From contig CANQVL010000003.1 in NCBI GenBank assembly GCA_947627285.1, positions 1-64,000 on the forward strand: DNA of 64,000 bases, written 5' to 3'. Positions 1 through 55,181 of this stretch are shown in pieces. Position 1 is the first letter of the stretch; every line of letters begins with the position of its first letter. The stretch comes from an uncultured Oscillospiraceae bacterium. GTDB lineage: Bacteria; Bacillota; Clostridia; Oscillospirales; Oscillospiraceae. A program made the position numbers and the translations under genes. Below the pieces are notes generated by a model. It was not told the DNA's origin and did not search any database. It saw nothing but the letters and a program-made list of their open reading frames with translations.

Positions 1-908
1 GTATTTCGCCTGCCAGTATTGTCAGATCCCCGTACCTCCTCGTGGTAGAAATAGTCCACGATCACAGGGTGCCCCTGCGGAACACGACCGTAGGGCATCT
101 CGTTATCCACAAAGGGACAGTCGTACTTCTTTGCCATTTCCTCTGCTTGCTTTTCGAGTGTTGCAAAGTAGCTTCGGTCGTGCCTGTTGTATATTTCATC
201 ATAAAGCGGCGCGAGGCTTGGATATTTTTCCGCAATATAGTCCATAATCGTCTTTTTGAAGCCGCCGCGAAGGTTCAGGTTTTCAAGCCAGAACAGGTCG
301 CACTGATCCTTGACCCGCCCAAAGATTTCCTCCAAGTCCGTGATTCCCGGAAAGACAGGGGACACAAAGCAGACAGTACGGATACCGGCGTCGTAGACCG
401 TTTTCATGGCCGCCAGGCGCCTCTCGATGCTGACGGCGTTATCCATGTCGTTCTTGAAGTTCTCATCCAGCGTATTGATTGACCAGGATACCGTCACCTG
501 ACCCAACTCTTTCAAGAGGTCAATATCCCGCAGAACGAGATCGGATTTCGTGCAGATCAGGATGTCCGCGCCACTGCCGCGGAGCTGTTCAAGCAGCTTG
601 CGGGTAGCACCGAAAATTTCCTCCTGCGGATTATAGCCGTCCGTCACCGAGCCGATCACCACCCGCTGCCCGGCATACTTCTGCGGATTTTTGATTTCCG
701 GCCAGTGCTTCACATCAAGAAAGGTCCCCCATTCCTCCGTGTGCCCGGTAAACCGTTTCATAAACGAGGCATAACAATATTTGCAGGCGTGGGTGCAGCC
801 AATATAGGGATTGACGGAGTATCCGCCCACTGGGAGGCTGGATTTCGTCATGATGTTTTTCGTCTCCACATCGGCAATCAAAACGTCGTTTTCACTTATT
901 TGTGCCAT
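1..908 (-). CDS. SPL-type radical SAM protein, C-terminus cut by window edge
   Basis: Radical SAM protein of the spore-photoproduct-lyase-like group, probably binding one 4Fe-4S cluster and cleaving S-adenosylmethionine; the substrate is unknown. Reading down from the ATG at 906-908 gives an N-terminus with the cysteine motif CTHACKYC, then GSVTDGYNPQE and DILICTKSDLVLRD blocks typical of the family. About 302 residues are visible and the frame is still open at base 1; the near-identical gene at 53668-54597 ends a few residues beyond the matching point, so little is missing. The two proteins look about 85-90% identical by eye. The start overlaps the stop of the preceding DUF5131 gene by 13 nt, so the two are translationally coupled. 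It lies beside a tRNA-fragment junction, so it may be carried by an integrated element. Confidence 0.85.
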   Translation of the reverse strand, partial: MAQISENDVLIADVETKNIMTKSSLPVGGYSVNPYIGCTHACKYCYASFMKRFTGHTEEWGTFLDVKHWPEIKNPQKYAGQRVVIGSVTDGYNPQEEIFGATRKLLEQLRGSGADILICTKSDLVLRDIDLLKELGQVTVSWSINTLDENFKNDMDNAVSIERRLAAMKTVYDAGIRTVCFVSPVFPGITDLEEIFGRVKDQCDLFWLENLNLRGGFKKTIMDYIAEKYPSLAPLYDEIYNRHDRSYFATLEKQAEEMAKKYDCPFVDNEMPYGRVPQGHPVIVDYFYHEEVRGSDNTGRRN

Positions 909-1582
909 TTTCTCTGTTCCTCCAAAACTCTGCTGTAAGCGTCGGGCAGTTCCTGTATCATATCATCACCCATGATGGGGGCAAGGTCTTCTTTCCAAAA
1001 CACACGGGCGCCCTGTGCGTGGGCCTGCTTCGTCAGAGAACACACCCATTCCGGCGATGTTCGGACTTTCCGGCTCATGGGGCCGGTCATGGTTCCGATG
1101 ACTACCCAATCAATACCGCTGAAATCCACCTCGCCAGGATCGTCGAACAGCGGTTCGAAGGTCACATGGTAATGCTTGGCCCGAACGTTTTTCCGCAGCG
1201 CGTCAATTCTCCAAAGCTCCGATTTTCTTGTGACCGTCACACCGAACCAAGCGTTTTCAAGGTCGGTGTCGATGTCCAGCAGGTCGGGGCGTTTTGACAG
1301 GAACAAAAATTGATGTTGGGGATTTTCTGCCATCTTTGCAAATACCTGCTCCCGCCATTCCGTCTTCCAACCGGCAAGGTCGCTCATGCCGGTCAGCAGG
1401 AAATTCTGCGGCCTTTCTTTTTCCATCAGCCGCAGCTTACCCGGAAAAAACTCCGGTTTTGAGAAGTCGTCAATCATATGATACCGCCGCACGTTGTTTC
1501 TGGCGTAGCAGTAGGGGCAGCCCACCGTACAGCCGATCACCAGGTTCATATTTTGTATCTGGTCTTTTATGCAAACATACAT
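896..1582 (-). CDS. DUF5131 family radical-SAM-like protein (phage Gp37/Gp68-like)
   Basis: A 228-residue protein with a radical-SAM-like cysteine motif near the start (GCTVGCPYC, Cys18, Cys22 and Cys25) followed by motifs of the DUF5131 family (NFLLTGMSDL, FLFLSKRP, WFGVTV, WVVIGTMTGP). The family is found in phages and bacteria and its reaction is not established. I chose the ATG at 1582 because GGAGGA sits 11 nt upstream, inside the end of the MarR gene; the longer frame to 1633 would overlap MarR heavily. The gene sits between MarR and the SPL-type radical SAM gene with only short overlaps, so the three form an operon. Two radical SAM-type proteins under one MarR regulator suggest a stress or repair role, which is inference. 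Confidence 0.8.
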   Translation of the reverse strand: MYVCIKDQIQNMNLVIGCTVGCPYCYARNNVRRYHMIDDFSKPEFFPGKLRLMEKERPQNFLLTGMSDLAGWKTEWREQVFAKMAENPQHQFLFLSKRPDLLDIDTDLENAWFGVTVTRKSELWRIDALRKNVRAKHYHVTFEPLFDDPGEVDFSGIDWVVIGTMTGPMSRKVRTSPEWVCSLTKQAHAQGARVFWKEDLAPIMGDDMIQELPDAYSRVLEEQRKWHK

Positions 1583-1583
1583 A

Positions 1584-2015
1584 TTAAATTCGTTCCTCCA
1601 CATTCGCGAGTATTCGCCGGAGATAAGCTTCAAACTGTCGAATTTCCTCCTCGGAAAAACCCTTATAGTAAATATCGCCGATCTCCTTTGTGACCTCGTC
1701 GTAGTCGTCCTTCAGCGCCTTTGCGCTTTCTGTCAAGAATATGAGTATCTTCCTGCGGTCCGTATCGCCCCGGTCCCGCCGCACTAAGCCGCTCGTTTCC
1801 ATACGGTCCAGCATACCGGTGAGCGTCGTCATGGCCAGCCCTGTCTCTCTGGATAACTCGCTGATAGGAATACCGTCCTCATGCCAGAGAACATACAAAA
1901 TTCGTCCCTGCGCGCCGTTGAAAGCGTCGATATTCTTTTGGGCCAGGATGCGTTCAAAAATTCTGCCGCCAACTTGCTTGATCCTTGTGATTAAAAAACC
2001 GCCCTGTCGTTCCAT
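1584..2015 (-). CDS. MarR family transcriptional regulator
   Basis: A 143-residue winged-helix regulator. The N-terminal helix ends in the dimerisation region; the HTH and wing are visible as ISELSRETGLAMTTLTGMLDRMETSGLVRRDRGDTDRR at about residues 52-90, the classic MarR signature including the DxR wing residues. The start ATG has GGGAG about 6 nt upstream. It is first gene of the minus-strand operon MarR / DUF5131 / radical SAM and has a strong promoter directly upstream, so it probably represses its own operon. The ligand cannot be told from the sequence. Confidence 0.9.
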   Translation of the reverse strand: MERQGGFLITRIKQVGGRIFERILAQKNIDAFNGAQGRILYVLWHEDGIPISELSRETGLAMTTLTGMLDRMETSGLVRRDRGDTDRRKILIFLTESAKALKDDYDEVTKEIGDIYYKGFSEEEIRQFEAYLRRILANVEERI

Positions 2016-2044
2016 TGGCTTCTCCCTTCTTACTGCTTTATAGG

Positions 2045-2073
2045 ATTATACTATATAGGAGTATCTGGGTCAA
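2045..2073 (-). promoter_or_regulatory. sigma-A type promoter of the MarR operon
   Basis: On the minus strand TTGACC (2068-2073) and TATAAT (2045-2050) are separated by exactly 17 nt. The spacer and -10 region carry repeated CTATATAG/TATA sequence that could serve as the MarR operator. The MarR start lies about 30 nt downstream. Confidence 0.8.
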
Positions 2074-2094
2074 TATATTTTCGCATAAAAATAA

Positions 2095-2109
2095 CCGGGC
2101 AATGCCCGG
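2095..2109 (-). terminator. short GC hairpin, possible weak terminator
   Basis: CCGGGC and GCCCGG pair across a 3-nt loop. On the minus strand the hairpin is followed by TTATTTTTATG, so it could end leftward transcripts arriving from the transporter gene at 2418. Confidence 0.5.
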
Positions 2110-2164
2110 CTTATATATACTTTGCAAAGATGCGTTTTCATAAGTATCTCAAATAGCAGCCATC

Positions 2165-2205
2165 AGTAGTCAATTCTCAAAAATTAGTAGTCAAACAGTA
2201 GTCAA
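2165..2205. repeat. three phased AGTAGTCAA direct repeats, putative integrase arm sites
   Basis: AGTAGTCAA occurs at 2165-2173, 2186-2194 and 2197-2205, spaced 21 and 11 nt (two and one helical turns). Short phased direct repeats next to a tRNA fragment are what tyrosine-integrase arm-type sites look like. No integrase gene is present in the window. Confidence 0.5.
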
Positions 2206-2293
2206 CGGCCAATGGTTTTCCACTCTCTGCAAATCCCAAATCCTTAGCGCCGCAAGGGGTTTGACCGTAATCGCTCACTCAATCGCCGGAAAC

Positions 2294-2333
2294 GTCGGAG
2301 TCTGACACTCTATCCAGCTTAAGCTACGGGCAC
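2294..2333 (-). pseudogene. 5-prime fragment of tRNA-Arg(CCG)
   Basis: On the minus strand the sequence reads as a tRNA 5-prime half: acceptor strand GTGCCCG, TA, a D-arm (GCTT...GAGT with AAGCTGGATA loop), anticodon stem TCAGA and loop CTCCGAC with anticodon CCG. Right after the anticodon loop it stops matching; the expected TCTGA stem, variable and T-arm are absent. A tRNA cut at the anticodon loop is a common integration scar. The rest of the tRNA should lie at the other end of the element or has been lost. Confidence 0.65.
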
Positions 2334-2360
2334 ATTTGGTTGGCGCGAGTAGTAATATAA

Positions 2361-2382
2361 CAGATTGGAGAGGAAATTTCAA
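2361..2382. repeat. 22-bp direct repeat, left copy
   Basis: Matches 22259-22280 at 21 of 22 positions in the same orientation. Both copies lie just downstream of minus-strand genes. The pair brackets the 19.9-kb carbohydrate island. Confidence 0.6.
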
Positions 2383-2417
2383 GAGCAAATCAGATTTTTG
2401 GAAGAGATTTTTTGACG

Positions 2418-3596
2418 TCAGGGATTTTTGCGTTTTAACAGTATGGCTGCTGTATAGAGGACGATGGGGAAAACCGTGGCGGCGAGGATTCCCGCCTTCA
2501 AATCGTTCCCCAAAAGGCCGGATACCAACCCGGCGAATGTGGGACCCGCGGAACAGCCCAGGTCTCCAGCCAGAGCAAGTAAGGCGAACATGGCCGTTCC
2601 GCCGCCTCGGATGAGGGCGGAGGCGCGGCTTAACGTCCCCGGCCAGAAGATCCCCACCGCAAAGCCGCAGACCGCGCACCCCAGAAGCCCGAAAAACGGG
2701 ATAGGGACCAGGGCGATGCACAGATACGATGCTATACACAGAACGCAGCTGAAGGTCATGTATTTTTCAAGATCGATCCTGTCGCCAAATTTTCCGTAGA
2801 TCAGTCTTGAGATTCCCATAAGCGTGGCAAAGGCCATGGGTCCGGCCAAATCTCCAACAGTCTTGCTGACGCCAAGTCCCTTTTCGGCCAAAACGGACGC
2901 CCACTGGCTGACAGACTGCTCGCTGGCCCCCGCGCAGAGCATCATCAAAAGGAGGATCCAGAAGAGCCTGTCGCGGATGAGCTTCCGTACTGTCAGCCCC
3001 TTTTCCCCGGGAGGATTTAGGGGCGCTATGGGGACCTTGAGAAAAAGAAGCATGTTGGCGGCGGGAATAAGCGCCCAAATGATCCCCAATATCTGCCAGG
3101 CTCCGATGCCGAACACGGCGAAAAACACGGTGGATATAAGCACAACGCCTACATGCCCCCAGCAATAGAAGGAGTGGAGAAGGCTCATGGCCTTTTCCTT
3201 GTTGCCGGTGGGACACGCCTCTAAAACGGGACTTACCAGGACCTCAATGAGTCCGCCTCCCACAGCGTAGAGACATACGGATATGAAAAGCCCCGCGAAA
3301 GGGTCCGGCATGAGTTTTGGCAAAAAGGTGAGGGAAATAAGTCCTGCCACGGCGAAAAGGTGTGCCGCAATCATGGAGACGCGGCAGCCCAAGCGGTCAA
3401 TGAGCCCGGCTGACAGCGCGTCCACAAGCAGCTGCACGATGAAATTCACCGTGATCAAAAGCGTGATCCTGGTCAGCGGTATCCGATAGCTCGTCTCAAA
3501 GCTCACAAAGAGAAGCGGGGCGAAGTTGTTGACGATAGCTTGGACGACATACGCCACAAAGCAGGCATAGATGGTCCCCTGATAATTCTTTTTCAT
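2418..3596 (-). CDS. MFS sugar transporter
   Basis: A 392-residue major facilitator protein with about 12 hydrophobic segments and the MFS loop motif after helix 2 (DALSAGLIDRLGCRVS). It resembles the FucP/sugar-MFS branch of prokaryotic members. I start it at MKKN (3596), 13 nt after the stop of the GH43 gene, because the longer frame overlaps that gene. The only ribosome site is a weak GGAA, as expected for the second gene of a coupled pair. With GH43 upstream it probably imports the xylo- or arabino-oligosaccharides that enzyme trims. Substrate assignment is inference from context. Confidence 0.85.
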   Translation of the reverse strand: MKKNYQGTIYACFVAYVVQAIVNNFAPLLFVSFETSYRIPLTRITLLITVNFIVQLLVDALSAGLIDRLGCRVSMIAAHLFAVAGLISLTFLPKLMPDPFAGLFISVCLYAVGGGLIEVLVSPVLEACPTGNKEKAMSLLHSFYCWGHVGVVLISTVFFAVFGIGAWQILGIIWALIPAANMLLFLKVPIAPLNPPGEKGLTVRKLIRDRLFWILLLMMLCAGASEQSVSQWASVLAEKGLGVSKTVGDLAGPMAFATLMGISRLIYGKFGDRIDLEKYMTFSCVLCIASYLCIALVPIPFFGLLGCAVCGFAVGIFWPGTLSRASALIRGGGTAMFALLALAGDLGCSAGPTFAGLVSGLLGNDLKAGILAATVFPIVLYTAAILLKRKNP

Positions 3597-47938: not shown

Positions 47939-48069
47939 CGTGTAAAATACGCGATTGCGACGGCGAGGGGCAGAAATTTTTCCCGAAAAAAATACGTGAA
48001 ACGGCAAAACGCAAACAAATCTTAACAATTGTGTGTTAGGATAAGACAAAAACGCAAGGGGGGCTTTCT

Positions 48070-48741
48070 GTGTTTCGGATTTTGGTGGTGGAGGACGACG
48101 CGGATCTGAACCGCTCCGTCTGCTCGTTCTTAAACGGCAGCGGGTACAACGCGGCGGGGTGCCTGAACGCCAACGACGCCTATGACGCGCTCTATGAGAA
48201 CACCTTTGACCTCATCGTATCGGACATCATGATGCCGGGCACCGACGGCTTTGAGTTCGCAAAAACGGTGCGGAGCCTGGATCAGGAGATCCCCATCATA
48301 TTTATGACGGCGCGGGACGACATTACCTCAAAGCAGCGGGGCTACCGCGCCGGCATTGACGATTACATGGTAAAGCCCATCGACCTGGACGAGCTCCTGC
48401 TACGCGTCGGCGCTCTCCTGCGGCGGGCGGGGATCTCCGCCTCCCGCAGGCTGGAGATCGGGAAGCTGCGGCTTGACATGGACGGGCGCACGGCAGAGTA
48501 TGACGGGGAGGAGATCCCAATGACGGCGCGGGAGTTCAACATCCTCTTTAAGCTCCTGAGCTGTCCCGGAAAAGCATTCACCCGCACACAGCTCATGGAC
48601 GAGTTCTGGGACGCGGACACGAACACAGCGCCGCGGGCAGTCGACGTGTACATGACAAAGCTCCGCGGGAAGCTTGAGCGCTGCTCGGAAATCGAGCTGA
48701 GGACCGTCCACGGTCTGGGCTACAAGGCGGTGATTTTGTGA
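48070..48741 (+). CDS. OmpR family response regulator
   Basis: A 223-residue receiver plus winged-helix regulator. DDAD acidic pair at residues 9-12, phosphoacceptor Asp in LIVSDIMMPGTDG near 53, Lys in YMVKPID near 102, and the OmpR output TAREFNILFKLLSCPGKAFTRTQLMDEFWD with the C-terminal recognition region ...VDVYMTKLRGKL. Starts at GTG 48070 after GGGGGG. The stop overlaps the kinase start by 4 nt (GTGA). Confidence 0.93.
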   Translation: MFRILVVEDDADLNRSVCSFLNGSGYNAAGCLNANDAYDALYENTFDLIVSDIMMPGTDGFEFAKTVRSLDQEIPIIFMTARDDITSKQRGYRAGIDDYMVKPIDLDELLLRVGALLRRAGISASRRLEIGKLRLDMDGRTAEYDGEEIPMTAREFNILFKLLSCPGKAFTRTQLMDEFWDADTNTAPRAVDVYMTKLRGKLERCSEIELRTVHGLGYKAVIL

Positions 48742-49850
48742 AGGAGTATCCCGGATACCGGCGGCTCTTGTACTCGCTGAGGAGCTATGCCGCGTTTTTT
48801 CTGCTTATGTCCTTCGTTATCACCTGCTGTATGCTTCTTTTCCTGAAAATGCTGGCAAGCTCCATGGAGCTTACGTATACCGAGCGGGAGATCCGCCTTG
48901 CGGCGATCGCCACGTTTGTAAACGTTATCCTCCTGAGCCTTCTCTGCACCGTCATTGACGGCATTCGCCGGAAATTCATGGTGGAGCGCCCGGTGCGGCG
49001 CATCGTGCAAGGGGCCTCAAAGCTCATGCAGGGGGACTTCTCCGCGCGGATCGAACCCTACCACGGGATCGACGAGCGGTCGGGGTTTGACACGATCATC
49101 GACTACTTCAACCTCATGGCGGAGGAGCTCTCCGGCGTTGAGACTCTGCGGACGGACTTTATCGCCAACGTGTCCCACGAGCTGAAAACGCCCTTGGCGG
49201 TAATGCAAAATTACGCCGCTCTGCTCCAAAGCCCTGATCTCACGGAGGAGCGGCGGCGGGAGTACGCCGGGGTCATCGCTGAGCAGTCACGGCGGCTTGC
49301 GGACCTCATCACGAATATTTTGAAGCTGAACCGTTTGGAAAACCAGCAGATATACCCCGCCGCCAGGCGGTATGACCTGGGCGAACAGCTTGCCGGGTGC
49401 CTCCTGGATCTTGAGAGCGTCTGGGAGAGAAAGAGCATTGAGATAAAGACCGACATCGAGGAGGATGTATTTGTCGAATCGGACGGCGAGCTCCTCTCCC
49501 TCATTTGGAGCAACCTCTTTTCCAACGCCCTGAAATTCACGGAATCCCACGGCGCCGTATCCGTAACGCTGAAAGCCGAGGGGGAGTACGCGGTCGTACA
49601 CGTCTCGGATACCGGCTGCGGCATAAGCCCTGAGGTGGGCAAGCACATCTTTGAGAAATTCTACCAGGGCGACCCCTCCCACGCCTCCCAGGGGAACGGC
49701 CTCGGGCTGGCGCTGGTGAAGCGCGTGGCGGATATCGTGGGCGGCAGCATCACCGTTGAGAGCGAGGTGGGGAAGGGGAGCACCTTCACCGTGAAGATCA
49801 GGAGGGCGGCTGATGGAGAGATCAAAAAGCAAAAACCCGCTGAGGAATAA
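48738..49850 (+). CDS. sensor histidine kinase (PhoR/ResE type)
   Basis: A 370-residue kinase with two membrane segments (about 17-37 and 55-75), a very short external loop, a HAMP-like linker, HisKA with phosphoacceptor in NVSHELKTPLAVMQNYA, and HATPase with NALKFT, SDTGCGIS and GNGLGLALVKR. The GTG start overlaps the response regulator stop, so they are coupled. With almost no extracellular part it probably senses the membrane or a partner membrane protein, perhaps the one encoded next. Confidence 0.93.
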   Translation: MKEYPGYRRLLYSLRSYAAFFLLMSFVITCCMLLFLKMLASSMELTYTEREIRLAAIATFVNVILLSLLCTVIDGIRRKFMVERPVRRIVQGASKLMQGDFSARIEPYHGIDERSGFDTIIDYFNLMAEELSGVETLRTDFIANVSHELKTPLAVMQNYAALLQSPDLTEERRREYAGVIAEQSRRLADLITNILKLNRLENQQIYPAARRYDLGEQLAGCLLDLESVWERKSIEIKTDIEEDVFVESDGELLSLIWSNLFSNALKFTESHGAVSVTLKAEGEYAVVHVSDTGCGISPEVGKHIFEKFYQGDPSHASQGNGLGLALVKRVADIVGGSITVESEVGKGSTFTVKIRRAADGEIKKQKPAEE

Positions 49851-50514
49851 GCTCCTTCGTACTAAAGCGGGCGAAAAATACCTTACCGACCCACGCTTCC
49901 GCGCCGAAGTCTCGCTGTATCTGGGACTTTTCGTAAATCTCCTGTACATCGCCGTGAAGCTGGCCTCCGGCATCGTGTACCGGTCCGTCTGGTTCATCGC
50001 TCTGGCGGTATACTACCTCATTCTGGCGGTGATGCGCCTTATGCTGGCGCGCCGCCTGAACGTCCGGGACGAAGTATCTCAGCTGCGCCGTTACCGGCTG
50101 TGCGGGATCATGCTCCTTTTCATGAATCAGGCGCTTGCGGGTATAGTCGTATTGATGGTGCGGCATGACCGGGGCTTTGAATATCCGGGGTATTTGATTT
50201 ACGCCATGGCAACATATTCCTTTTACGCGGTAACGGTGGCGGTGATCAATATCGTCAGGATCCGAAAGCATAAAAGCCCGGTCCTGTCCGCCGCGAAGGC
50301 TGTCGATCTCGTGGCGGCGCTGGTGTCAATACTGTCCCTGACCACGGCAATGCTGACGCGGTTCGGCGGGGAGGACGACGCCGGATTCAACAGGACAATG
50401 ACCGCCTCGGTTGGCGGCGGGGTCTGCACCGCCGTCATCGCCATGGCGATCTACATGATCTGTCGGGCAAATAAAAAACTCAAAAAGCTTGAAATTAACA
50501 ATTCTCAAACATAA
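49813..50514 (+). CDS. uncharacterised multi-pass membrane protein
   Basis: A 233-residue hydrophobic protein with about six membrane helices and basic ends (MERSKSKNPLRNKLLRTKAGEKYL and RANKKLKKLEI). It overlaps the end of the kinase gene by 38 nt in another frame, so it is the third gene of the two-component operon. I do not recognise the family. It may be a sensor accessory or the immediate output of the system; either is inference. Its stop is followed by the hairpin cluster at 50539-50656. Confidence 0.85.
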   Translation: MERSKSKNPLRNKLLRTKAGEKYLTDPRFRAEVSLYLGLFVNLLYIAVKLASGIVYRSVWFIALAVYYLILAVMRLMLARRLNVRDEVSQLRRYRLCGIMLLFMNQALAGIVVLMVRHDRGFEYPGYLIYAMATYSFYAVTVAVINIVRIRKHKSPVLSAAKAVDLVAALVSILSLTTAMLTRFGGEDDAGFNRTMTASVGGGVCTAVIAMAIYMICRANKKLKKLEINNSQT

Positions 50515-52092: not shown

Positions 52093-52959
52093 TCACAGGT
52101 CCTCCAGAACCTGGAAAATGTCGGCGTCAAGGAGGATGGAGCGGCTGGCGATCTCAGACGGGCAGACGGCTTTTCCGTTATTTACGCAGGAATACACCGC
52201 CCAGGTGTTCTCCGCCGTCATGCGCCAGAAGGGGTATTTGATGATGCCGGGGGTGTTGAAGCCAACGCCCAGCTCCAGATACAGGACCTTGCCGCTTTTA
52301 TGGGCTCGAAGGAAGCTCTCGTACCGCTCCGCCGCCTCGTGCCAGCCCTCGTCCTCGACAAACCGGTCGTCGGAGCGCAGATTCAGCGTCATTGGCCTGC
52401 CGCAGCGGGGACAACGGGGGAGGAGCTCGGCGGGGACCCGCATATCCCTTTGCCGTTCCAGCATTTGGCGAATAACGGGCTCGTTGTCGAATGTCTCCTG
52501 ACGGCAGGGCTTGGAGCACTGAAAGAGCCCGTAGTCGCCTTGGGTGTAAAAAAGCCGCCTTTTGTCAAAGCCCGCCTTTTGAAAGCAGTGGTCAACATTT
52601 GTGGTTATCATAAAATAATCCTTGCCGGAGACGAGCGTAAGAAGCCGGTCATATACCGGATTGGGGGCGTCCGTATACCGGTTGATGAAGATATACCGGC
52701 TCCAATACGCCCAGAATTCCTCCGGCGCGGGGAAGGGATAAAAGCCACCGGAGTACATATCCGAAAAGCCGTATTTTTCGGCAAAGTCGGAAAAATGCTT
52801 CTTAAACCGCTCCCCGGAATACGTAAAACCCGCGGCTGTGGACAGCCCCGCGCCGGCGCCGACGACGACGGCGTCCGCCTTGTCAAGAGCCCTTCGGAGC
52901 CCGGGGATATTATCCCAGTAATTCCCTGTAGATTTTGTGATCGGCATCCTTGAAGACAT
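52093..52959 (-). CDS. class-M sirtuin (SirTM) protein ADP-ribosyltransferase
   Basis: A 288-residue Sir2-fold protein of the macrodomain-linked class. NAD-binding GAGAGLS at 34-40, TTNVDHCF with Asn121 and Asp123, and Gln140 in YTQGDYG where classical sirtuins have catalytic His. Zinc is probably held by Cys148, Cys152 and the CPRC pair (183, 186). SirTMs ADP-ribosylate a lipoyl-carrier protein (GcvH-L) in some Firmicutes. Here no GcvH-L or lipoate ligase gene is near. Start 52959 has GGAGGTGATATTCA upstream and overlaps the macrodomain gene end by 50 nt, so the two are tightly coupled. The target in this organism is unknown. Confidence 0.9.
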   Translation of the reverse strand: MSSRMPITKSTGNYWDNIPGLRRALDKADAVVVGAGAGLSTAAGFTYSGERFKKHFSDFAEKYGFSDMYSGGFYPFPAPEEFWAYWSRYIFINRYTDAPNPVYDRLLTLVSGKDYFMITTNVDHCFQKAGFDKRRLFYTQGDYGLFQCSKPCRQETFDNEPVIRQMLERQRDMRVPAELLPRCPRCGRPMTLNLRSDDRFVEDEGWHEAAERYESFLRAHKSGKVLYLELGVGFNTPGIIKYPFWRMTAENTWAVYSCVNNGKAVCPSEIASRSILLDADIFQVLEDL

Positions 52960-53671
52960 TGAATATCACCTCCGTATCGCCCCTGTATTGCCGCACCGTG
53001 TCAACGGCGATCCTTGCCGCCTCCTCGTTGGGGAAGTGAAACTCGCCGGTGGAGATACAGCAGAACGCCACGCTTTCAATCCCGTTTTGCCGCGCCAAAG
53101 CAAGGCAGGAGCGGTAACAGGAGGCGAGCAGGCCCCGCTCTGTCCCGGTCACATTGCCGTATACGATCGGTCCCACGGTGTGGAGCACATAGCGGCAGGG
53201 CAGGTTGTAGGCGGGGGTGAGCTTTGCCTGTCCGGTGGGCTCCCCGTGACTCTGCTTTTCCATAAGCTCCGCGCAGGCAAGCCGCAGCTGTACCCCGGCG
53301 TAGGTGTGTATGGCGTTGTCGATACAGCCGTGGCAGGGGACATAGCAGCCGGTGAGACCGGAATTGGCGGCGTTGACGATAGCGCCGCATTTGAGGGCGG
53401 TGATGTCGCCCTGCCAAAGATATATTCCCGGCTCAACTGGCGTGAGATCCGCAATGTCCGTGACGCCCTTTCTCGTCGTCTCCTCCCGCAGGTATTCGTC
53501 CTGAACCGCGAGAAAATCCTCCCCGATGGGGCGCGGCGGGCGGACGTTCATAAGAGACCGCAGGAGCCTTTTTTGCTCCGCGCTACCGTCCGGCAGCTCC
53601 GCCGCCCAGTTCCCGCGCTCCTCCCGCAGAAGATACCGTATCAAAAACTCCCGTCTTTCCGCCTGCGTCAT
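52910..53671 (-). CDS. zinc-macrodomain ADP-ribosylhydrolase
   Basis: A 253-residue macrodomain protein with a ~75-residue N-terminal helical extension. The ADP-ribose pocket shows GDI (88-90) and VNAANS (99-104). GCYVPCHGCIDNAIHTYAG supplies zinc ligands (Cys109, His114, Cys116), the mark of the SirTM-linked Zn-macrodomains, which remove the ADP-ribose that SirTM adds. HTVGPIV and STGEFHFPNEEAARIA are further family blocks. It overlaps both neighbours (4 nt with the radical SAM gene, 50 nt with SirTM), so the three proteins are made together. Confidence 0.93.
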   Translation of the reverse strand: MTQAERREFLIRYLLREERGNWAAELPDGSAEQKRLLRSLMNVRPPRPIGEDFLAVQDEYLREETTRKGVTDIADLTPVEPGIYLWQGDITALKCGAIVNAANSGLTGCYVPCHGCIDNAIHTYAGVQLRLACAELMEKQSHGEPTGQAKLTPAYNLPCRYVLHTVGPIVYGNVTGTERGLLASCYRSCLALARQNGIESVAFCCISTGEFHFPNEEAARIAVDTVRQYRGDTEVIFNVFKDADHKIYRELLG

Positions 53672-54597
53672 GACGTCACCTCCGCTTTTTTGTTCCGCCT
53701 TCCCGTGTTGCCGGAGCCCCGGACCTCCTCGTGGTAGAAGTAGTCCACGATGACGGGGTGACCCTGTGGGACGCGACCGTAGGGCATTTCGTTATCCACA
53801 AATGGACAGTCGTATTTTGCCGCCAGCTCCTCCGCCTTTCTTTCCAGCTCCTCAAAGAAGCTCCTGTCGTGCCGGTCGTAGATCTCCCGGTAGAGCGGAA
53901 GAAGGGCGGGGTATTTTTCGCCGATGTAGTCCATGATCGTCCTTTTGAACCCGCCGCGAAGGTTCAGATTTTCCAGCCAGAACAGGTCGCACTGATTCCT
54001 GACACGCTCAAAGATAGCCTCAAAGTCCGTTATTCCCGGAAAGACGGGGGAGACGAAGCAGACGGTGCGGATACCGGCGTCGTAGACCGTTTTCATTGCC
54101 GCAAGGCGCCGCTCGATGCTGACGGCGTTGTCCATGTCGTTCTTAAAGCCCTCGTCCAGCGTGTTTATTGACCAGGACACCGTCACCTGTCCCAGCTCCT
54201 TCAAAAGGTCCAGGTCCCGAAGGACCAGATCGGATTTTGTGCATATGAGAATGTCCGCCCCGCTGCCGCGAAGCTCACTAAGGAGCTTGCGGGTGGCGCC
54301 GAAAATCTCCTCCTGCGGGTTGTAGCCGTCGGTCACCGAGCCGATGACCACCCGCTGACCGGCGTACCTCTTGGGGTTTTTTATCTCCGGCCAATGCTTC
54401 ACGTCTAAGAACGTCCCCCATTCCTCGGCGTGCCCCGTAAAGCGCTTCATGAAGGAGGCGTAGCAGTATTTGCACCCATGGGTACAGCCCACATACGGGT
54501 TGACCGAGTACCCTCCCACCGGAAGCGCGGACTTGGTCATGATGCTTTTAGTCTCCACCTCGTTTATCAAAACGCCGTCTTGCTCGATCGCCGCCAT
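53668..54597 (-). CDS. SPL-type radical SAM protein of the sirtuin/macrodomain operon
   Basis: A 309-residue radical SAM enzyme with C38-T-H-G-C42-K-Y-C45 and downstream blocks GSVTDGYNPQEEIFGATRKLL and LICTKSDLVLRD. It is close to the protein encoded at 1-908. Start ATG 54597 has GGAGGGACA upstream; the longer frame has no such site. It is first gene of the operon radical SAM, macrodomain, SirTM. Its substrate is unknown; association with ADP-ribosylation suggests a stress-linked modification or repair reaction, which is inference. No regulator is encoded immediately upstream, unlike the left copy. Confidence 0.9.
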   Translation of the reverse strand: MAAIEQDGVLINEVETKSIMTKSALPVGGYSVNPYVGCTHGCKYCYASFMKRFTGHAEEWGTFLDVKHWPEIKNPKRYAGQRVVIGSVTDGYNPQEEIFGATRKLLSELRGSGADILICTKSDLVLRDLDLLKELGQVTVSWSINTLDEGFKNDMDNAVSIERRLAAMKTVYDAGIRTVCFVSPVFPGITDFEAIFERVRNQCDLFWLENLNLRGGFKRTIMDYIGEKYPALLPLYREIYDRHDRSFFEELERKAEELAAKYDCPFVDNEMPYGRVPQGHPVIVDYFYHEEVRGSGNTGRRNKKAEVTS

Positions 54598-54764
54598 ATT
54601 CTCTGTCCCTCCGGAGTGTTGTTTGCCATCTATTATACCCCCGCCGCCCCCATCACGCAAGCCCCACGCCTCGCCTTTGTTACAAAGACCGTTACGCCCT
54701 TAACACCTCTAAATAATGCCAAAAAAAGAAAGCGGCGGGATCACATCTCCTGCCGCTTTCAAAG

Positions 54765-54989
54765 TCAGCTTCGCGGTGCGGGGTCGTCTGTGAGGCCCAC
54801 CAGATAGTCCAAGCTCGTCTTGTAAAAGACTGCCAGCTTAACCGCCGCCTCCAGGGGGAGAGGACGCTCGCCGCGCTCGTATTTGGAGTACAGGGACTGG
54901 TCGCACATCAGCTCTTCCGCCACCTGACGCTGTGTCAGGTCAGCATCCTCCCGCAAATCGCGTATCCGTAGACGCATATTCATCACCAT
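54765..54989 (-). CDS. XRE-type helix-turn-helix regulator
   Basis: A short DNA-binding protein of about 74 residues: RLRIRDLREDADLTQRQVAEELMCDQSLYSKYERGERPLPLEAAVKLAVFYKTSLDYLVGLTD is a complete HTH_3 domain. The exact start is uncertain: three in-frame ATGs lie at 54989, 54983 and 54977. Palindromic and repeated GACAATAT sequences just upstream (54990-55042) suggest autoregulation. It lies beside a DUF3987 gene, a pairing common in prophages and integrative elements. Confidence 0.85.
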   Translation of the reverse strand: MVMNMRLRIRDLREDADLTQRQVAEELMCDQSLYSKYERGERPLPLEAAVKLAVFYKTSLDYLVGLTDDPAPRS

Positions 54990-55029
54990 TGACAATATAC
55001 ACCGGCGAAGAGGTTTATATTGACAAATT

Positions 55030-55042
55030 GGACAATATGTCC
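55030..55042. promoter_or_regulatory. GGACA-ATA-TGTCC palindrome, putative XRE operator
   Basis: Perfect odd-centred palindrome upstream of the XRE gene, with related TTGACAATATA and TATATTGACAA words nearby. Confidence 0.45.
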
Positions 55043-55181
55043 TGCGATTTGCTTTAGTGGTGAGAATATGCCTGATTATAAGGAGATGCACCGCCCGGTG
55101 AGGTTTGTCGGGTTTGTCATGTAGCGGCAGGGGGGTGGAAGGGGCGGAAAAGCGGCTGAGGGAGCGGGGTTTGGGGATTTG
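55043..55181. other. intergenic stretch without supported gene
   Basis: Holds only an 18-codon plus-strand frame (55071-55127) preceded by GGTGAG, which is too short to support. It contains tandem TTTGTC words discussed under the DUF3987 locus. Confidence 0.4.

Follow-up and report, generated by a model that had tools for sequence, protein, structure and literature searches.

The window analysed in this work is a stretch of 64,000 nucleotides (contig CANQVL010000003.1) from the assembly of an uncultured Oscillospiraceae bacterium (GCA_947627285.1, completeness 98.7%), probably a gut dweller. Near 54 kb, its reverse strand harbours three genes, encoding a radical S-adenosylmethionine (SAM) protein (53668..54597), a Zn-macrodomain protein-ADP-ribose hydrolase (Zn-macro, 52910..53671) and a class M sirtuin (SirTM, 52093..52959). 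All three open reading frames (ORFs) are open. The radical SAM and Zn-macro genes overlap by 4 nucleotides (ATGA) and the Zn-macro and SirTM genes by 50 nucleotides, implying co-translation. The tight operon described in the first-pass annotation of this DNA was thus confirmed, with the motifs of the genes kept. The radical SAM ORF starts with ATG, and an in-frame TTG at 54660 is an alternative.

The Zn-macro protein scored 347.5 bits against NF003163 (cut-off 272). It carries the Cx4HxC zinc loop (CYVPCHGC, at residue 109) and the NAAN motif (at residue 100) by which Zn-Macros are defined in the part of PMC11490716 on these motifs. It matches the structures 8rsi, 5kiv and 8rsl over nearly its full length, and the alignment reaches into the N-terminal regions of 8rsi and 5kiv, the region of the three-helix extension by which Zn-Macros are also defined. 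SirTM matched two solved sequences, the SirTM structure 5a3a (phmmer, 1.8e-74) and the macro-sirtuin fusion 8rsn. As in class M sirtuins, it is linked to a macrodomain, QG replaces the catalytic HG, and N121, Q140 and R195 align with N118, Q137 and R192 of Streptococcus pyogenes SirTM (the Asn by eye), active-site residues whose roles are treated in passages of PMC4518038. The ratio of non-synonymous to synonymous substitution rates (dN/dS), with the window as reference, was 0.11-0.23 for Zn-macro and 0.14-0.22 for SirTM against nine relatives, and 0.07-0.13 for the radical SAM gene against five; these ratios are rough because dS was 0.6-1.7. SirTM (writer) and Zn-macro (eraser) would form a working mono-ADP-ribosylation switch, for which, as part of the whole explanation given below, we see an even balance of chances. 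An anti-phage defence role was considered and set aside: at E 0.01, PADLOC gave no match for SirTM or Zn-macro, nor for the two tandem sirtuins of L140 described below (L and G numbers denote loci and genomes in our samples).

In the extended SirTM operon of Staphylococcus and Streptococcus (GcvH-L, Zn-Macro, SirTM, LplA2, OYE and LLM), as outlined in parts of PMC4518038 and PMC11490716, the writer, the eraser and their catalytic residues are like those of the window, but GcvH-L and LplA2, present there, are found neither in the window operon nor in its genome. The first-pass annotation had already noted their absence from the operon, and the genome search that it called for, run on the whole assembly, gave the same result. 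PF01597 gave a single match below the cut-off (21.3 vs 22.2 bits), a biotin-carrier-like protein, and no GcvH; PF03099 gave a single, biotin-ligase-like match and no LplA2, other lipoate genes not being searched. The AMKMEN motif of the biotin-carrier-like protein is presumably its biotin site. PF01597 matched 13 of the 14 control genomes (10 over the cut-off), and PF03099 matched all 14 (14 over the cut-off).

ACGX-repeat peptide operons carrying SirTM and Zn-macro

We surveyed 291 genomes of the window's class (read as Clostridia). The gene acgM, encoding the radical SAM/SPASM maturase (TIGR04340) of the predicted ACGX-repeat peptide system (peptide AcgA, TIGR04341), was present over the cut-off at 12 places in 11 of these genomes. 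Eleven of the twelve genes lie within about 4 kb upstream of an over-cut-off Zn-macro gene that shares their contig and strand. The contig of the remaining one is 4,150 bases long and ends after a DUF1848 gene. The eleven loci all contain SirTM, a peptide ORF (shorter in the eleventh, L180) and an HxlR regulator, while a nitroreductase is found at ten and a PNPOx/ferredoxin gene at eight. TIGR04341 was confirmed on three of the peptides and matched in 12 of the 14 genomes searched.

The reverse survey covered all 55 places with Zn-macro over the cut-off (52 of the 291 genomes), with at most 5.5 kb upstream and 4.5 kb downstream of the gene; at least 4 kb of upstream sequence was available at 46 of the 55. 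Genes detected around these places by tblastn were SirTM (52), divergent HxlR-like (30), PNPOx/ferredoxin-like (23), AcgM-like (13), nitroreductase (12), Rrf2-like (5), DUF5131 (4), MarR-like (3), DUF1848 (2) and pairB, the family of the window's radical SAM gene (2). Peptide ORFs with at least four [AST]CG motifs were near 10 of the 55. Eleven of the 13 AcgM-like matches exceed the TIGR04340 cut-off; the matches in the other two loci (L195 and L200) are either antisense or of 26% identity. At L171 (the same place as L043), Zn-macro and SirTM are kept, the ACGX peptide is truncated and there is no acgM match; this acg operon seems to be decaying while the pair stays.

The linkage is already visible in public annotation, since the RefSeq gene row of Roseburia sp. 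831b reads acgA, acgM, nitroreductase, 4Fe-4S protein, protein-ADP-ribose hydrolase, Sir2 and DUF1848. The NCBIfam family names of the ACGX system, as names and not full descriptions, do not mention SirTM. In the open-licence literature, a search which left subscription papers and preprints outside, no paper joined SirTM with radical SAM, or a sirtuin with radical SAM and ribosomally synthesised and post-translationally modified peptides (RiPPs). Nothing appeared on ACGX with radical SAM or on the 'radical SAM mobile pair', which does not show that the linkage is unpublished. No title among the matches listed for ACGX concerned the ACGX peptide; macrodomain with radical SAM and operon gave only an E. 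coli gene survey, and SirTM with Clostridia and substrate only PMC4518038. DUF1848 genes adjoin Zn-macro–SirTM or form part of an acg operon at L185, L204, L267, L260 and L244. CX3CX2C is present in the DUF1848 proteins of L185, L204 and L244 (near the C-terminus in L244), and DUF1848 is possibly a rearranged radical SAM-like family.

Origin of the operon in the window

The radical SAM protein of the window is a radical SAM mobile pair protein B (pairB, TIGR04470; 575 bits, cut-off 410), with CX3CX2C at residues 38-45 (CTHGCKYC); C38, C42 and C45 are invariant across 20 aligned sequences. A contig scan gave at least 580 relatives of pairB, and its neighbourhoods were counted in the best 80 (0.9 kb of downstream sequence available in 68 and 5 kb of upstream sequence in 52). 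Zn-macro–SirTM is directly downstream in only six of the 80 (L082, L085, L086, L088, L089 and L100), the genes of L085 being broken. All six are 'Lapin' bins, probably from rabbit gut. The three-gene block is common to the window, L082, L086, L088, L089 and L100, with 77-81% nucleotide identity and differing flanks.

Upstream of pairB, acgM is kept in three of the six relatives. L082 has the order acgM, nitroreductase, helix-turn-helix (HTH) gene, PNPOx/Fe-S 3' end, pairB, Zn-macro and SirTM. In L088, acgA and acgM precede the PNPOx/Fe-S 3' end and the three-gene block, while in L089 the block follows acgA, acgM, a diverged nitroreductase and pairA, the partner of pairB in the mobile pair. L082, L088 and L100 have an open PNPOx/ferredoxin 3' end immediately before pairB, and the nucleotide similarity of the window to these three loci runs to 54672. 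The window itself harbours a relic of this 3' end with its last codons (54633..54695, reverse strand; ..RRGACVMGAAGV*, the L082 counterpart being ..RHGTCVTGAAGV*). A putative promoter-like sequence, TTGCGT-17-TATAAT, aligned by eye, stands before pairB (54632..54660, reverse strand) with equal spacing in L082, L088 and L100. Further upstream on the same strand, a weakly RstR-like HTH protein (54765..55091; 48.9 bits, below the cut-off of 80) is 93% identical to the HTH protein located between nitroreductase and PNPOx/ferredoxin 3' end in L082. In a Zn-macro tree made by a quick method, the window fell in a group of nine rows, four of them with ACGX genes (SH-aLRT 92).

With acgM in three of the six relatives and a relic in the window, the window operon looks like what remains of an ACGX operon after the insertion of pairB and a truncation. 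The ancestral operon would have comprised the HxlR regulator, acgA, acgM, the nitroreductase, PNPOx/ferredoxin, Zn-macro and SirTM. An insertion of pairB, alone or together with pairA, would have separated the PNPOx/ferredoxin gene from Zn-macro in the lineage of the window; the genes from acgA to PNPOx would later have been lost, leaving pairB–Zn-macro–SirTM behind the promoter-like site. Gene order, relic, motifs and low dN/dS are read directly from the DNA, and from them we infer the order of insertion and then loss.

The genome contains a second Zn-macro–SirTM pair (L065) at 1155-3005 of a 3.3-kb contig (C90), preceded by an apparent internally deleted nitroreductase relic. With no radical SAM gene on its contig, this copy is like the lone SirTM/Zn-Macro pairs of Clostridiaceae, Lachnospiraceae and others mentioned in part of PMC4518038. 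The window pair differs from these, as it is headed by pairB, and 11 of the 55 class pairs are in acg operons.

The radical SAM mobile pair and its neighbours

The first-pass annotation had called the radical SAM protein SPL-type, a loose label: it scored 15.2 bits against the NCBIfam spore photoproduct lyase model TIGR04070 (cut-off 400), and membership of that family was rejected. A phmmer search of the PDB gave nothing under E 0.06. The best 80 relatives of pairB are 82-91% identical to it and come from Bacillota, Spirochaetota, Actinomycetota and one Chloroflexota bin. pairA adjoins pairB in 68 of them and a MarR regulator is found in 52; both are absent beside the pairB at 54 kb. In the class sample, pairB exceeded the cut-off at 13 places in 12 genomes, and only the 54 kb copy abuts Zn-macro. 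In one further genome (G223), Zn-macro–SirTM lies 2.3 kb downstream of pairB, with CAAX-protease-like and beta-lactamase-like genes between, and one more place (24-878 of the window) is truncated by the contig end. A regular partnership of pairB and SirTM throughout the class was not borne out. TIGR04470 proteins belong to a mobile pair for which SirTM is not a usual companion. Among 72,556 plasmid records, 66 matched pairB, 26 of them over at least 80% of the query, with Bacteroides, Parabacteroides, Selenomonas and Lachnospira as hosts.

The usual MarR–pairA–pairB cassette (TIGR04472/TIGR04471/TIGR04470) is present elsewhere in the window, at 3-2015 on the reverse strand, so the genome has two pairB copies. 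It consists of a pairB gene which runs off the contig start (3..908, 590 bits), pairA (896..1633; TIGR04471, Pfam DUF5131, PF07505; 412.6 bits, cut-off 355) and a TIGR04472-like MarR-family regulator (1584..2015; 222.2 bits, just below the cut-off of 240). This pairA matches the PADLOC models PDC-M41B (2.9e-28) and PDC-M30B (5.8e-28), which carry no description, and pairB matches the same models weakly (4.8e-4 and 2.6e-3 respectively). A response regulator/histidine kinase block at 48006-50459 of the window is 69.7% identical to L131 11886-14333, downstream of the pair cassette.

Tandem SirTM-like genes were found upstream of pairA/pairB in 7 of the 80 loci (L087, L090, L123, L085, L140, L150 and L152), of which L140, L150 and L152 are near-identical copies. 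Searched with one of the tandem sirtuins, the 291 class genomes gave only matches of 30-37% identity, and each of the 48 matches listed was on a contig with a Zn-macro match close by. In the quick pairB tree, the seven rows with Zn-macro–SirTM need three label changes against the tandem-sirtuin rows, and they may have a single origin. The two tandem genes of L140 and of L087 differ at the site of the catalytic HG, with QG in one and EG in the other. Plasmid relatives with 38-45% identity come from those of Lactiplantibacillus, Paenibacillus and Mesobacillus, the Mesobacillus one near a nicotinate phosphoribosyltransferase gene.

Candidate targets of the ADP-ribosylation switch

We propose that in part of the Clostridia the SirTM/Zn-macro switch would be an accessory of the ACGX-repeat peptide operon. 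AcgM would first modify AcgA by predicted CX3D or CX3C thioethers. SirTM would then ADP-ribosylate the modified AcgA, most likely on Asp or Glu, and Zn-macro would reverse this modification under redox control. In the window, the pair would act on another target, which pairB may modify, or pairB may merely share the promoter. In 23 distinct ACGX peptides (one a relic), 126 of the 136 Cys are followed at +4 by Asp (74) or Cys (52), and Cys stands at -4 from 74 of the 108 Asp. In the parts of PMC9413430 on PapB and PapA (freyrasin), PapB joins the Cys and Asp of CX3D motifs by a thioether at the Asp beta carbon. The CX3D spacing is common to PapA and the ACGX peptides; PapB and AcgM, both radical SAM/SPASM proteins, are separate families, and the AcgM cross-links are predicted. 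As summarised in passages of PMC4518038 and PMC11490716, once GcvH-L is lipoylated, SirTM modifies it at an acidic residue, and Zn-macros remove ADP-ribose from Glu/Asp sites, which suggests AcgA as a natural analogue of GcvH-L. GcvH-L was not demodified by Zn-macros of a minimal operon or of fusions in the part of PMC11490716 that deals with them; other substrates are thus to be expected. Both the extended SirTM operon and the acg operon have a small modified carrier and flavin enzymes; the carrier is GcvH-L in the former, and in the proposed ancestral neighbourhood of the window pair it would be an ACGX-repeat peptide, with a radical SAM/SPASM enzyme to modify it. We infer AcgA as the substrate, the chemistry, the redox role and the present target of the window pair from these comparisons. 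Reversible ADP-ribosylation of AcgA by the acg-operon SirTM and Zn-macro after CX3D/CX3C cross-linking, which would make AcgA an ADP-ribosylated RiPP, is put forward tentatively.

Several observations weigh against this proposal. AcgM scored only 65 bits on the PapB model. G150 has no peptide and G197 only a peptide relic, and both keep the pair; as the pair is also kept without acgA in the window, AcgA would not be the sole substrate. Over-cut-off acgM was present at only 11 of the 55 class Zn-macro places, and most sampled pairs have no acgM nearby, since 37 of the 44 others have at least 4 kb of upstream sequence. Outside the class, 398 genomes of the phylum gave seven further acgM places, only three of them with the pair (L265, L266 and L267); the other four (L263, L264, L268 and L269) each have at least 5 kb of downstream sequence. 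The pair would thus be a frequent accessory of the ACGX system and not an obligate part. Closer to the window, no acg genes were found at L086 (10 kb upstream seen) or L085, and the L100 contig starts 608 bases upstream. The window assembly itself has neither acgM over the cut-off nor any TIGR04341 match, with an assembly gap possible; the same search matched TIGR04341 in 12 of the 13 other genomes. Taken as a whole, with the ACGX-operon accessory, the AcgA substrate and the truncated window operon, this explanation is the best at hand, and we hold it with middling confidence.

Another reading gives the role of partner to a CX3CX2C protein (pairB, DUF1848 or DUF5131 type), which would work with SirTM and Zn-macro to modify a target or to repair an ADP-ribosylated target, the ACGX genes being neighbours only. 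The slot beside the pair is indeed occupied by pairB in the window, L082, L086, L088, L089 and L100, by DUF1848 in L185, L204 and L267 (after SirTM in L244) and by DUF5131 in L106, L163, L165, L174 and L207, and the seven loci with tandem SirTM-like genes by pairA/pairB point the same way, although the search of the class genomes with one of these genes gave at most 37% identity. Such families are directly against the pair at only 7 of the 55 class Zn-macro places, the window and an interrupted DUF5131 gene in L163 counted (8 of 55 if a HydG-like gene in L192 is included). Moreover, the six pairB-abutting relatives all come from 'Lapin' bins, and the seven tandem-sirtuin loci include three near-identical copies. 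The slot association, taken as a raw count, is real but weaker, and we consider this reading rather improbable, if one to be taken seriously.

Accidental order, in which a mobile-cassette member landed beside the SirTM–Zn-macro pair and has only the promoter in common with it, agrees with the plasmid-borne pairB genes of four bacterial genera and with the missing pairA at 54 kb. It is at odds with the conservation of the block in the window and five relatives with differing flanks, and with the low dN/dS of all three genes, and we judge it unlikely. The first option of the first-pass annotation, in which SirTM would ADP-ribosylate the radical SAM protein itself, draws on the co-translation implied by the overlaps. 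Against it, the close relatives of pairB are spread across several phyla with 74 of 80 not abutting SirTM, and unrelated families occupy its slot in other genomes. As pairB looks like a late insertion, a role as target is less likely than action beside the pair, and we regard it as very improbable. Much of the first-pass reading stood: the operon is real, GcvH-L and LplA2 were not found in the genome, and radical SAM genes recur beside the SirTM–Zn-macro pairs of the class, although the particular family, TIGR04470, abuts the pair in only 6 of 80 relatives and 1 of 13 class places. It missed the ACGX peptide and AcgM as candidates, which were out of its sight because the window has neither acgA nor acgM.

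Within the preferred explanation, in which the switch serves the ACGX operon, the linkage names a peptide and a maturase and so turns the question of the SirTM target into a bench test, with a small expressible peptide as candidate and an enzyme that would modify it first. If the proposal is true, the ACGX peptide, described by NCBIfam only as a repeat peptide, would gain a possible role in redox control, and SirTM would gain a second, lipoate-free class of substrate, a small redox thiol carrier parallel to lipoyl-GcvH-L. The common logic suggested is the reversible ADP-ribosylation of enzyme-modified thiol carriers.

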